Below are positions 3,436-8,053 of a DNA stretch of 64,000 bases, one piece after another; positions within the stretch are counted from its first letter, which is position 1; each line of letters opens with the position of its first letter. A program made the position numbers and the translations under genes. Source of the DNA: Methylacidimicrobium sp. B4 (GTDB lineage Bacteria > Verrucomicrobiota > Verrucomicrobiia > Methylacidiphilales > Methylacidiphilaceae). The notes under the pieces were generated by a model, which worked only from the letters and a program-made list of their open reading frames with translations, was not told the origin of the DNA and searched no databases. The DNA lies in contig NZ_CP066203.1 of the NCBI RefSeq assembly GCF_017310545.1, forward strand, positions 1,860,001-1,924,000. Direction: 5' to 3'.

Positions 3436-4839
3436 TCACTTCCCTTTCGCGGTGGGCAAGCGCAAGAGCAGCTCGGGCGGGTCGGCTCGCTGAGCCTGCA
3501 GGATCCCGCTGTAAAAGAGGCGAAAGACATAGCCATAGAAGCGCTGGTGCGGGACGGGATGATCGAGGCGATAGGTCACCCGGAGAACCTCGGCGCGATT
3601 GCCTCCCCAGCGCGGAAAGGCATTCTCGAATCCGGCGGTCACCTCGGCATTGGTCGGCACGATGATGCCCGCGTCGATCTGATCATAAGCGTAAAACTGA
3701 TAGCTGATTTGACCGAGCGCGATCTTCGTCCGGGAGTCGGCTCCGATGCGGAAGCGGAAGACCAGTTGCTGACCGAACGGGCTGCCGTTACCGCTGCTCC
3801 GTTCGACTCCGAGGAGCTGGAGGGGCGTTTTGGCCCGATGAAGAAAGGCCGTTTCGCTCGAGTCCATCCCTTCCGCTTGCGCCGCTTCCTCGAGGTGGCT
3901 GCGGGCTCTTTCGTAGGATGCCCCCGCGGCGGGTCCCATCGAAACGAGCCGACTCCAGTACTCCGTCGCCCGGGAAAGATTCTTCTCTTCCTCGGCTAGT
4001 TCGCCCTGCCATTCCAGGATGGCCGGATTTTGCGGATCGAGATCCTCCGCCCGGGAGAGGGCGGCACGCGTGAGCTCCCGGTCGCCCTCGTTCTTGAACC
4101 GCTTCGCTTCCTGAAGCAAAGCGGTGACCCGCTCTCGGTTGGTCAGCGCGGGAGGGGCCAGACGTCCTCCGGTCGGGCGTGGATCGAGCACGAGGGAGAG
4201 GGAATGCCCGTCGTAATGGGTCGATGGAACGGGAGGGCGGGGAGCGAGGAGCGATGGAATCGGCGGACCCTGTGCCGCATTCGCGGCGACCGCGGGGAAC
4301 AGGAGAGCGGGCGCGTGCGTGTCACCCTTGATCCGGTGGCGGAGCCAGAATACCGAAAGGAGTGCCAGTCCTTGGACCGCCACGACGAGGGCGGCGAACC
4401 AGAGGGACCAAGCGTAGATCTTCGAGGCCACTCGCCCCGGCGGCATCGGCGCGCGTGGCGGAGGAGCAGAGGCTTGGGGCAGGGAAGGAGGTGGCGGAGG
4501 CGGAGGAATCGGAGGTGGCGTCTTCACGGGCCCCACGGCGGTCGTAAGAGCGGGAGCCTCCGGAGGGGCTGTTGGGCCTCGCGTGATCGGAGAGCTCGAA
4601 AAAGGAGAGCTCCCCGTTGGAGCCGGAAGGGGGGTGGCATCCCGGTTGCCGGCGAGAAGGAGGGGCAAACGCTTGGCCGCGGCCCGGAGCGCGGCGGCGT
4701 CGATCCTCTTGACCGCAGCAGGGGATGCCAAGCCGGGAGCCAACGAATCGATCGGGGCGGGCGCCGAGGCGAAGGAAGACGTTGATTCTCGATTCGGTGA
4801 GACTAAGCTATCTGCGTCAGCTCTTTTCTGATCTTGCAT
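3436..4839 (-). CDS. Single-span membrane protein with TPR-like periplasmic domain, function unknown
   Basis: About 467 residues. The cytoplasmic N-terminal part is rich in Pro, Ala and Ser, with a proline run near residue 115. One membrane helix follows (WSLWFAALVVAVQGLALLSV), then a TPR-like stretch around AKRFKNEGDRELTRAALSRA and DPQNPAILEWQGELAEEEKN. The C-terminal beta-rich domain has no family I recognise. The start is uncertain: ATG 4839 overlaps the divergent sigma-factor ATG at 4838 and has no clear Shine-Dalgarno, while the frame stays open to 4941. Its position beside the sigma factor suggests an envelope-stress role, but only by context. Confidence 0.65.
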   Translation of the reverse strand: MQDQKRADADSLVSPNRESTSSFASAPAPIDSLAPGLASPAAVKRIDAAALRAAAKRLPLLLAGNRDATPLPAPTGSSPFSSSPITRGPTAPPEAPALTTAVGPVKTPPPIPPPPPPPSLPQASAPPPRAPMPPGRVASKIYAWSLWFAALVVAVQGLALLSVFWLRHRIKGDTHAPALLFPAVAANAAQGPPIPSLLAPRPPVPSTHYDGHSLSLVLDPRPTGGRLAPPALTNRERVTALLQEAKRFKNEGDRELTRAALSRAEDLDPQNPAILEWQGELAEEEKNLSRATEYWSRLVSMGPAAGASYERARSHLEEAAQAEGMDSSETAFLHRAKTPLQLLGVERSSGNGSPFGQQLVFRFRIGADSRTKIALGQISYQFYAYDQIDAGIIVPTNAEVTAGFENAFPRWGGNRAEVLRVTYRLDHPVPHQRFYGYVFRLFYSGILQAQRADPPELLLRLPTAKGK

Positions 4840-5443
4840 GGAAAAACCCACGCCGGATACTCCGATACGAGAGCCTACGGATCGCGAGCTCGTCCTCTCC
4901 TTGCAGAACGGGGATCTTGGCGCGTTCGACCAGCTTGTCAAGCGGTATCAAGCGCGCCTTTATCGCGTGATCTATGGCGTCCTGCTCCATCACGACGACA
5001 CCAATGACGTTCTCATGGAAACGTTTGTGAAGGCGTACCGCAATATGGGCCGCTTTCGGATCGGAGCCTCCTTTTACACCTGGATTTACCGGATCGCAAT
5101 CAATACAGCGATCAGCCACCGGCGAAAGTTCGCCCGCTTGCGGCTGGCCGGCGGCTCCTCCGGCGGTGGAGAAGACGAGGAAAGGACGCCCGAGGCGTTC
5201 GTGGACGAGTCGGCGGGAAAGGAAGCTCTGCGGAAGATCGAGCTTCAAGAGCTGCATCAGGAGCTCGAGCAAGCGCTCCAACAGTTGAGCGAGGCCCACC
5301 GGGCCGTCGTTACCCTCTTCGACATCGAAGGGTTGAGCCATGCCGAAATCGGCAAAATCGTGGGCTGCTCCGAAGGGACGGTTCGTTCCCGGCTCTTTTA
5401 CGCCCATAAACGTTTGCGGGAGTTGCTGCGTAATTATGTTTGA
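4838..5443 (+). CDS. ECF-type RNA polymerase sigma factor (sigma-70 family)
   Basis: The 201-residue product has sigma region 2 at about residues 25-90 (DQLVKRYQARLYRVIYGVLL, then TFVKAYRNMGRF and FYTWIYRIAINTAISHRRK). Region 4 lies at about 145-195, with the HTH GLSHAEIGKIVGCSEGTVRSR. There is no region 3, so it is group 4 (ECF). Between the two domains lies a Gly/Glu-rich linker. The downstream genes encode a membrane protein in the anti-sigma position, a dead HtrA and a MotB-like protein, which suggests envelope sensing. The start codon overlaps that of the minus-strand gene and lacks a good ribosome site. Confidence 0.92.
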   Translation: MEKPTPDTPIREPTDRELVLSLQNGDLGAFDQLVKRYQARLYRVIYGVLLHHDDTNDVLMETFVKAYRNMGRFRIGASFYTWIYRIAINTAISHRRKFARLRLAGGSSGGGEDEERTPEAFVDESAGKEALRKIELQELHQELEQALQQLSEAHRAVVTLFDIEGLSHAEIGKIVGCSEGTVRSRLFYAHKRLRELLRNYV

Positions 5444-5481: not shown

Positions 5482-6003
5482 ATGAAGGGACGGCAAGAGA
5501 GCGAGACGAAATTGAACGAGCAGTTGCGAATCTTTTTTGGTCATCGTCTGGCGGAGAAGGCGACCCCCGAATATTTCGAAGGAATGCTCGGGCAGGTGCA
5601 TCGCCGGTTGCGTCAGGAGCTCGTTGGTCGGCCTCGCTGGTGGGATCGGCTTGCGGAACTGATCGCTCCCTCGCTCCCGGAGGTGCGCCCGCTGCTCGTT
5701 CGGTTGGCCCTCCCGGCAGTCCTTTTCGCCGCGGTTGTGGGCTTCGCTCTGCAGCACGAGCGCCTGACTCCAGCTGCACGGCAGGTGGCGCTTGCGACCT
5801 CGCCTTCGCCGGCTCATCTCGTCAGCACAGGTCCGGATCTGCTCTGGAACTTGAGAGGGGACGGGGAGCCGTCCATCGTCGCGCCGAGAGCGGCGTCGGG
5901 AGTCGGGGAGGAGAGGACAACCAAGGCAAAAGACCGGGAGAATGGAGGACGATCGTTCGTGAGTGTGCTTCCCGTCCGGTATGAAGCCAGCGTTGACTTT
6001 TAA
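5482..6003 (+). CDS. Putative anti-sigma factor (small single-span membrane protein)
   Basis: The 173-residue product has a charged cytoplasmic N-terminus (RIFFGHRLAEKATPEYFEGM and QVHRRLRQEL), one membrane helix near residues 66-88 (VRLALPAVLFAAVVGFAL) and a short polar periplasmic tail. This is the layout of membrane anti-sigma factors, and it directly follows the ECF sigma gene. The zinc-binding HxxxCxxC motif of ZAS-type anti-sigmas is absent, so the assignment rests on position and topology. ATG 5482 has GGAG six bases upstream. A TTG at 5440 overlapping the sigma stop is the alternative. Its 3' end overlaps the next gene by 23 bases. Confidence 0.55.
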   Translation: MKGRQESETKLNEQLRIFFGHRLAEKATPEYFEGMLGQVHRRLRQELVGRPRWWDRLAELIAPSLPEVRPLLVRLALPAVLFAAVVGFALQHERLTPAARQVALATSPSPAHLVSTGPDLLWNLRGDGEPSIVAPRAASGVGEERTTKAKDRENGGRSFVSVLPVRYEASVDF

Positions 6004-7054
6004 GCTTTCCCTTAGCGCCGTTCTTCTCTTCTGGTCGAGCGCGATTTCCTGCTTGGCATGGCAGGAATCGGTCGCCACTCTCGGCTCGGAGGTGAGCCGG
6101 GTGTTCGGCAGCGCACGGAATGGCGCTGTCCGCGTCCGGGTACGGCACGACTCGACGGAGACGGTCGGTAGTGGCTTCTTCATCGATGCCACTGGCACGG
6201 TCGTCACCCTTTCGGATCTGGTCTCTCAAGGACAAGAAATTCGGGTGGAGTCGGAGAGCGGCGTGCTGCCCGCCGTTCTGGTCGGGCAGGATAGCCGCAG
6301 CGGGTTGGCCCTTCTGCGGACTCAATCGAGCCGCGCCACGCCCTTTCTCCGGTTTGCCTCGGGAACCGAGATGGCGCCGGGATCGTTTGTCGTGGGAGTG
6401 GGATACCCCTTCAATCTCTCGGCCTCCCCGATCGTGGGTGTCGTGCTGGGGGCGGACCGGCAGTTTCAGGACCGTCTCTTTTGCGTCTCCCACTTGCGCG
6501 TCGACATCACTGTCAGCCCGGGAGAGCTCGGAGCACCGCTCCTCAACCTGCAGGGCTTGGTTGTCGGGGTTGTTAGCATGGTTGTGAACGAGGGAAGATG
6601 GGCCTACGCGTTGCCCGGAAAGGCTGCGACGCGCGTGATCGGCGACATGCGGCAGTATGGGCGGGTCCGCTACGCATGGGCGGGGGTCGGCGTGGCTCGG
6701 GTCGGAGACGACCGGACGCAGAGCACGGTCATCGTTACCCGACTCTTTCCGAACTCGGCGGGGAAGGCGAGCGGACTGCAGGAAGGAGATCGCCTGGAGC
6801 GGATCAACGGGAAACCGGTCCACCGTCTGTCGGACGTGGTGGATGCCTCCTTTTATGCTCCGGTCGGCCAGCCGATCACCGTTGCCGTCTCCCGAAACGG
6901 GAAAATCAAGCGCTTCTCGCTGCTCGCCGACGAGCGGCCTCCAGACAATCCGGGAGGAGCCCCCGGCTCCCCCTCGGTCACGCTCGAAACGTCGTCGACG
7001 GAGCGCGCTCCCGGAGGACCCGTTGAGAAAACGATCGGAGCCGGTCCAAATTAG
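5981..7054 (+). CDS. HtrA/DegQ-like PDZ protein with the whole catalytic triad lost
   Basis: The 357-residue product opens with a signal peptide or membrane anchor (residues 8-27, KLSLSAVLLFWSSAISCLAW), then a trypsin-like domain of the HtrA type and one PDZ domain near residues 250-320 (FPNSAGKASGLQEGDRLERI). The HtrA scaffold is clear (GSGFFIDATGTVVT, GVGYPFNLSASPIVGVVLGA). At the TNNHVV position it reads TLSDLV (His to Asp79), at the SDLA position SGLA (Asp to Gly108), and at GNSGGP it reads GELGAP (Ser to Leu183). It should not be a protease. A binding or sensing role for misfolded envelope proteins is inferred from the PDZ domain and the sigma-factor operon. Confidence 0.85.
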   Translation: MKPALTFKLSLSAVLLFWSSAISCLAWQESVATLGSEVSRVFGSARNGAVRVRVRHDSTETVGSGFFIDATGTVVTLSDLVSQGQEIRVESESGVLPAVLVGQDSRSGLALLRTQSSRATPFLRFASGTEMAPGSFVVGVGYPFNLSASPIVGVVLGADRQFQDRLFCVSHLRVDITVSPGELGAPLLNLQGLVVGVVSMVVNEGRWAYALPGKAATRVIGDMRQYGRVRYAWAGVGVARVGDDRTQSTVIVTRLFPNSAGKASGLQEGDRLERINGKPVHRLSDVVDASFYAPVGQPITVAVSRNGKIKRFSLLADERPPDNPGGAPGSPSVTLETSSTERAPGGPVEKTIGAGPN

Positions 7055-7111: not shown

Positions 7112-8053
7112 ATGACGGACATGGAGAGCCAGAAGCCGGTCGTGATCCCGGTCGACGTTCCTAAGGCACGTCCGAGTGTGGTGCCCTACGGGGGGATCGG
7201 CGGCCTCCTTTTCTGGATCAGCGTCTCCGTCTTCCTCGGCATCAGCACCTTCCACTTCTACGACCATTTTACGGCTCGAGACCGCGAGGCACGCGCCCTG
7301 CAAGGGGACTCGGAGCTTCTGCGGAGCGAGAACCAGAAGCTGCGCTCGGTCGTCGACCAGCTACAAACCGAGCTCAGTCAAACGGGCAGCCTTCTGCGGC
7401 TCCAACAGGATCTCCTGGGACAGACCGCTGCGGTGAACGGAGCCGGGGAAGCGATCCAGGAGAAACCGCGCACGCGAACGCCCTCGGGGACCCTGGAACT
7501 TCGGACCCTGGAGGAGAGGCTGGACAAGGCGTTCGCCGCTCGAGTCCTCGCCAAGGAAGCCGCCATCCTCCCGCAGGAGAGCGGGGTCGTCATCGCCCTC
7601 GACTATCGCGTTCTCTTTCCTGGCCCAGGCCTCAAGATCGGAGCTCCCGGACAAGCGCTTCTTCACGAGGTGGCGGCCGGCTTGCAGCCGCTCTCGGGAG
7701 CCGTAGAAGTGCGGATCGTGGGCTTTGTCGACCCTACGCCAGCAGCCCCCCTGGCCCAGGCAGCCCCGGGCGCTCGCAAGAATCCCATGTCCAACTGGGG
7801 ACTCTCCTCGTTGCGCTCGGCGGCCGTGGCCCGGGTCCTGGTGGACGGAGAGCATCTTGCCGCCGGTCGGGTCACAGCCTCCTGCCGTGGAGCCGAGAAT
7901 CGCGCGGCGGCCGGAGTCGGGTCCAACCCCAACCCAGGGCTTTCCGCCCATCGATTGGAAATCGGGCTCTTCTTGACGGAGCACCCCCCGGGAGAGGGAG
8001 CAGGGGATGCGGGAGGATCGGCCGGCTCTAGCGAGCGCCAAGATGGAAGGTGA
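7112..8053 (+). CDS. Envelope protein with N-terminal anchor, coiled coil and OmpA/MotB-like domain
   Basis: 313 residues. A membrane helix lies at about residues 29-46 (GLLFWISVSVFLGISTFHF). A coiled coil follows from 50 to 110, rich in Leu/Gln/Glu (SENQKLRSVVDQLQTELSQ). A C-terminal domain resembles the peptidoglycan-binding OmpA/MotB fold (VLFPGPGLKIGAPGQALLHE, VEVRIVGFVDPTP, LSSLRSAAVARVLV, GRVTASCRGAENR). It probably spans from inner membrane to the cell wall. GGAGG lies nine bases before the ATG. It follows the dead HtrA in the same direction and its end overlaps the convergent rpsU by 26 bases. No MotA partner is adjacent. Confidence 0.7.
   Translation: MTDMESQKPVVIPVDVPKARPSVVPYGGIGGLLFWISVSVFLGISTFHFYDHFTARDREARALQGDSELLRSENQKLRSVVDQLQTELSQTGSLLRLQQDLLGQTAAVNGAGEAIQEKPRTRTPSGTLELRTLEERLDKAFAARVLAKEAAILPQESGVVIALDYRVLFPGPGLKIGAPGQALLHEVAAGLQPLSGAVEVRIVGFVDPTPAAPLAQAAPGARKNPMSNWGLSSLRSAAVARVLVDGEHLAAGRVTASCRGAENRAAAGVGSNPNPGLSAHRLEIGLFLTEHPPGEGAGDAGGSAGSSERQDGR

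Follow-up and report, generated by a model that had tools for sequence, protein, structure and literature searches.

An HtrA-fold protein lacking the catalytic triad as a probable non-proteolytic partner of an ECF sigma/anti-sigma pair in Verrucomicrobiota

A stretch of 64,000 nucleotides from Methylacidimicrobium sp. B4 (contig NZ_CP066203.1, positions 1,860,001–1,924,000; hereafter the window) carries a gene for a protein with the fold of an HtrA protease, in which all three residues of the catalytic triad are replaced, directly downstream of genes for an ECF sigma factor and a small membrane protein. The question raised by this locus is what such a protein does if it does not cut. The features on which the analysis is based are collected in Table 1, and the protein is referred to as the pseudo-HtrA.

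Table 1. Features of the sigma factor, putative anti-sigma factor and pseudo-HtrA locus, in positions of the window.
Feature	Positions	Strand	Basis
ECF sigma factor, 201 aa	4838–5443	+	Pfam Sigma70_r2 (52.3 bits) and Sigma70_r4_2 (56.1 bits)
Single-TM putative anti-sigma factor, 173 aa	5482–6003	+	One TM segment; N-terminal motif common to relatives
Predicted membrane helix of the putative anti-sigma factor, residues 72–90	5695–5751	+	Hydropathy window
C-terminal tail of the putative anti-sigma factor (...YEASVDF), presumed PDZ ligand	5977–6000	+	F/Y end across cassette loci
Pseudo-HtrA, 357 aa	5981–7054	+	ORF, Pfam, pairwise alignments
Triad His position, Asp79 in the pseudo-HtrA	6215–6217	+	Alignments, 95-member family
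Triad Asp position, Gly108 in the pseudo-HtrA	6302–6304	+	Alignments, 95-member family
Oxyanion loop GELGAP, residues 181–186, with Leu183 at the Ser position	6521–6538	+	Alignments
PDZ domain region of the pseudo-HtrA, residues 228–320	6662–6940	+	Pfam

The pseudo-HtrA gene starts within the anti-sigma gene, with an overlap of 23 bases, and encodes a signal-like N-terminal stretch followed by a full-length Trypsin_2 domain (62.7 bits, E = 8.6e-17, model positions 1–144 of 144) and one PDZ domain (Pfam PDZ, 32.8 bits, residues 235–301; PDZ_2, 31.1 bits, residues 245–313). Both domains scored over their cut-offs in the trypsin-like-then-PDZ order of HtrA/Deg proteins, in agreement with the original prediction, made from the letters of the DNA, that the protease scaffold and the PDZ domain are retained. 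The triad that makes an HtrA/Deg protein a protease reads D, G and L. These residues were placed under the His, Asp and Ser of DegP and MucD chains by phmmer alignments, with which a profile search concurred, and the loop reads GELGAP where active HtrAs have GNSGGP; each replacement was confirmed where it had been predicted. Four other HtrA/trypsin-like genes of the B4 genome keep His-Asp-Ser. Against the curated cut-offs of TIGR02037 (Do subfamily; 144.8 versus 416.2 bits) and TIGR02038 (DegS; 73.4 versus 422.95 bits) the protein scored too low, and its Pfam matches were restricted to trypsin and PDZ families, with no RseB/MucB homology among them. Structure prediction from six sequences returned a mean pLDDT of 38.1 and a pTM of 0.33.

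Orthologues were found in six other genomes of the family that were searched and in all seven genomes of the genus, where the three positions read Asp or Glu, then Gly and Leu, together with GELGAP. With a profile of 24 pseudo-HtrA rows (the window protein plus 23 discovery loci), at least 150 of 384 genomes of the class gave a match with an E-value no higher than 1.5e-62. In a draw of 288 genomes from the phylum, 26 matched at E 1e-60, and a single genome (G063) was a holder from another class. The pseudo-HtrA family is large and verrucomicrobial, and its holders span a large part of one class. For closer reading, 95 members were hand-picked to spread over 38 family-level groups, some from genomes beyond the at least 150 matches listed, and divided into a discovery set of 35 (L065–L102 minus three active controls) and a test set of 60 (L132–L191); L001 and L008–L012 were omitted as duplicate loci. 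The catalytic His and Asp were each present in 0/95 and the Ser in 8/95, which answers the question, posed with the original prediction, of whether the replacements are fixed. By comparison, a complete His-Asp-Ser set was read in 30/30 other HtrAs, taken from 19 genomes that lack the pseudo-HtrA family. Because the seven genus genomes and the 95 family members concur, the loss cannot be ascribed to chance or sequencing error.

Three trivial accounts of this loss were rejected. Misalignment is contradicted by the agreement between pairwise and profile alignments and by active HtrAs, for which the same procedure returned His-Asp-Ser in 33/33 (L100–L102; L272–L301). A decaying pseudogene is at odds with conservation over 38 groups and with a dN/dS of 0.14 against the closest relative, which indicates purifying selection. 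As to an alternative triad, which would have overturned the original prediction, none of the remaining His, Ser and Cys columns in the protease domain showed conservation of 80% or more across the 95 members. The lone Ser occurs in the loop (in contexts such as GQSGSP) of L137, L158, L165, L168, L173, L180, L181 and L189, with His and Asp gone.

The setting of the gene was similarly constant. Pfam and TM prediction bore out the ECF sigma factor and the membrane protein proposed upstream; the former carries Sigma70 regions 2 and 4 and scored 99.3 bits with TIGR02937 (cut-off 42.9). Across the family, a same-strand ECF gene lies upstream of the pseudo-HtrA in 90/95 loci (34/35 discovery, 56/60 test), so the association of orthologues with ECF genes reaches far beyond the genus. 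A single-TM protein precedes the pseudo-HtrA in 34/35 discovery and 57/60 test loci, and stands between the two genes in each of the 90 loci with an ECF gene; the three active HtrA controls have neither neighbour. One test locus (L135) has the TM protein, and no ECF gene was found within the stretch examined. A pseudo-HtrA gene standing alone, with the sigma/anti-sigma pair encoded elsewhere, was seen in four genomes, namely G033 and three from group f106. At the lone locus of G033 (L076), a transposase-like frame adjoins the 3' side of the gene and the pair lies on another contig, which suggests that the three-gene set was split there by rearrangement.

The membrane protein is a putative anti-sigma factor. 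Proteins at this place share a conserved N-terminal motif and a TM helix at about residue 70, and their periplasmic part is variable. Pfam gave no match to a known anti-sigma domain in the window protein; among relatives, zf-HC2 was detected at cut-off in L180 and below it in L155 and L168. The best-conserved periplasmic stretch is the extreme end, often PVSYE followed by hydrophobic-x-Phe. The last residue was Phe or Tyr in 88/90 readable cases (34/34 discovery, 54/56 test), the two exceptions finishing in M and N; L190 was left out owing to an N run inside the anti-sigma ORF and, counted as a miss, gives 88/91. In the neighbours from the same loci, an aromatic last residue occurred in 1/185 (ECF 1/90, pseudo-HtrA 0/95). 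The antepenultimate residue is in most cases V, L, F or I, and the VDF of the window protein combines a free aromatic C-terminus with a hydrophobic residue two positions earlier. Peptides with aromatics at the same places, such as YQF and WVF, are ligands of the DegS and AlgW PDZ domains (PMC8545111), and the anti-sigma tail is presumed from its residues to be a ligand of this type. This aromatic tail is a new point, absent from the original prediction, in which shielding of the anti-sigma factor had been one suggestion; that idea gains a concrete basis from the C-terminal Phe.

Anti-sigma proteins were picked with an HMM built from F/Y-ended discovery proteins, which may favour such ends, although relatives without them were also found. 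The test set was chosen on profile score and group code before the tails were read. The match of L081 was weak (E = 0.0056) and its N-terminus may be wrong; its VSF end was counted.

The tail also bears on the idea that the pseudo-HtrA works as a general chaperone of the periplasm and merely belongs to the sigma regulon and operon, the anti-sigma tail serving some other end. HtrA proteins can be chaperones (PMC12826053), and placement in an operon is by itself no sign of binding; yet the pair is conserved over 38 groups together with the tail motif, and in all four genomes where the two genes are no longer linked, the anti-sigma has kept its F end, that is, the tail is retained where the gene has moved away. 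We regard a general chaperone as improbable.

To relate the tail to its presumed partner, related anti-sigmas were sought in 69 genomes, nearly all chosen as being without the pseudo-HtrA, and found in 56; an ECF gene was present in 53 of the 55 such loci read. Over 142 cases, holders of the pseudo-HtrA had an aromatic end in 95 and another end in three (L157, L158 and L238), whereas non-holders had 19 and 25, respectively (raw Fisher p = 6e-13). Tail-loss remnants such as QPVNFEKK stop just before the missing residues. After correction on an ECF tree, from which G064 and G108 were omitted as no ECF gene lay within the stretch examined, the association was not significant: on average 2.3 of 5 contrasts agreed and none opposed. 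The tree holds some six changes of holder state, too few for a sign test to reach significance, so that a link between anti-sigma tail and pseudo-HtrA is suggested only.

The aromatic end is kept where no pseudo-HtrA was found in group f12 (13/13) and in f22 g56 (4/4), and because it persists there, the tail in these groups has or had another reader. These genomes lend some weight to a different account, in which an active PDZ protease (a DegS-like HtrA or Tsp/Prc) would use the tail as its ligand or degron, and the pseudo-HtrA, as a scaffold or regulatory subunit, would recruit or tune that protease, thereby promoting destruction of the anti-sigma factor. Active HtrAs exist in the B4 genome; HtrA trimers, as described in PMC11642142, make mixed oligomers thinkable; and MamO, inactive itself, promotes MamE-dependent proteolysis (PMC4794232). 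Against this, the cassette is linked to no particular active HtrA, and 25 of the 44 non-holder genomes lost the aromatic tail although they keep active HtrAs. A helper of this kind is rather unlikely, and a non-proteolytic protein that itself reads the tail is preferred. The f12 anti-sigma factors are much longer (about 270–295 residues from the motif on) and end in KF, RF or QF in 13/13; at the f12 loci, including L198–L200 and L222–L225, no pseudo-HtrA was found beside the anti-sigma gene.

Which part of the pseudo-HtrA might do the reading is indicated by remote relatives in group f11. In four f11 genomes such a relative (93–121 bits) follows an anti-sigma ending in F, and in a fifth (G079) a relative of 77 bits accompanies an anti-sigma ending in M. 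Four of these five proteins (L226–L229, L238) were scanned: PDZ_2 was over the cut-off in 4/4, and Trypsin_2 appeared once, below it. Because PDZ_2 is retained while Trypsin_2 has faded, the comparison suggests that the PDZ is the part under the stronger need to persist. Speaking against tail binding by the PDZ, Tyr or His occupies the aligned place of the Arg in the usual carboxylate-loop motif, and an Arg sits one residue earlier.

Alternatively, the old active-site cleft could have become a new binding site, marked by Arg173, for the acidic SYE/SYD portion of the tail or for some other ligand, with the PDZ mattering less. Arg173 (6497–6499), which may be a new binding residue close to the inactivated site, lies two residues past His171 and is Arg in 84/95 members, whereas three aligned active HtrAs have Gln; position 171 is His in 60 and Tyr in 24. 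The protease domain is moreover no less conserved than the PDZ (entropy across the 95 members 2.16 versus 2.37). The former triad positions, however, vary strongly, and the protease domain of the f11 relatives went largely unrecognised by Pfam, and we hold a cleft-based site to be most improbable.

Taken at its most general, the pseudo-HtrA is very probably a non-proteolytic partner of the ECF/anti-sigma pair in some form. The non-proteolytic role foreseen in the original prediction is the best reading, as a regulatory one, because the triad loss is fixed, the domains are kept, the gene is under purifying selection and the ECF/anti-sigma setting is conserved far outside the genus. The system would then be a sigma-E-like envelope-stress switch in which the HtrA partner binds and does not cut. 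The ECF sigma factor would be held by the single-TM anti-sigma factor, with its hydrophobic-x-Phe carboxylate end in the periplasm, and the secreted pseudo-HtrA would dock on that end by its PDZ and cap the anti-sigma factor in the manner of RseB. Misfolded outer-membrane proteins, through their Phe termini, would compete for the PDZ and release the cap; the host's BamA has such an end (...GYSF), whereas LptD finishes in ...GSQ, without Phe, which speaks against this signal. Once uncapped, the anti-sigma factor would be destroyed by an active HtrA and an RseP-type protease, setting the sigma factor free. Site-1 cleavage by the pseudo-HtrA is unlikely because the triad is missing, and it need not cut, since the B4 genome encodes an RseP-type site-2 protease over its NCBIfam cut-off as well as active HtrAs that could serve site 1. 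The anti-sigma function of the membrane protein, PDZ-tail binding, protection by binding and misfolded outer-membrane proteins as the signal are what we infer from these elements. That the PDZ caps the anti-sigma factor and is released by competing outer-membrane protein tails has, in our estimate, slightly less than an even chance. The broader proposal, that an ancestral dead HtrA serves Verrucomicrobiota as envelope-stress sensor, its PDZ reading a copy of the outer-membrane-protein C-terminal signal built into the anti-sigma factor and misfolded outer-membrane proteins working by displacement instead of protease switch-on, is put forward more tentatively still.

The envelope-stress pathway of Escherichia coli comprises RpoE, RseA, RseB, DegS and RseP, with RseB capping RseA. 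The present locus resembles it in its ECF sigma factor, single-TM inhibitor and PDZ-bearing HtrA-fold protein, in the RseP of the genome and in Phe-ended outer-membrane proteins as the likely signal. It differs in that the HtrA is without a triad and encoded in the sigma operon, and in that it is the inhibitor that carries the aromatic PDZ-type ligand. By analogy, the proposed working would be most like RseB combined with the PDZ half of DegS. The original prediction had set the protein apart from the DegS paradigm, which holds insofar as it cannot cut; the type of ligand looks DegS-like. The DegS/RseA part of the pathway is treated in PMC11642142.

MucD was the second-best solved structure in the pseudo-HtrA profile search. 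In Pseudomonas, the operon order is AlgU-MucA-MucB-MucD, so an HtrA gene (mucD) likewise lies in an ECF operon, although MucD, like AlgW, is an active protease. The PDZ of AlgW recognises a WVF tail (PMC8545111). This tail belongs to MucE and the anti-sigma factor is without it. MamO, an HtrA-type pseudoprotease of magnetosomes, similarly has an HtrA scaffold that lost proteolysis and gained another task; unlike the protein described here, it retains His and Asp, carries Thr in place of Ser, binds metal and belongs to no sigma system (PMC4794232). In FoxA/FoxR, a partner binds the C-terminal domain of the anti-sigma factor and protects it against proteolysis; there, this role falls to the signalling domain of a TonB-dependent transducer and to no HtrA (PMC11637429).

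Pseudo-HtrAs (MamO) and the protection of an anti-sigma factor by a bound partner (FoxA/FoxR) are already known. No description of the three-gene combination was found in the literature searched, the main ECF reclassification paper lying outside that search. If the proposal is true, the HtrA member of a sigma/anti-sigma system would rely for sensing solely on competition for its PDZ and carry out no proteolysis itself, and a single terminal residue of the anti-sigma factor should decide binding. The little-studied Verrucomicrobiota would gain a testable envelope-stress pathway, and the "serine protease" label given by fold-based annotation would need correcting for the pseudo-HtrA family.

A scan for ECF promoters 5' of the sigma gene gave hits at 6/90 loci against 3.1 expected in shuffles, that is, no signal. 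In the window, the ECF start codon (ATG) overlaps a possible ATG of a divergent minus-strand gene (3436–4839) in the sequence CATG (4837–4840); the two genes would share a start place, leaving no promoter space between them. The gene that follows the pseudo-HtrA (7112–8053) encodes an N-terminal membrane segment, a coiled coil and an OmpA-like domain (28.8 bits); homologues, found in 0/33 other neighbourhood loci, lie 3' of the pseudo-HtrA in five loci of Methylacidiphilaceae (L065–L069).
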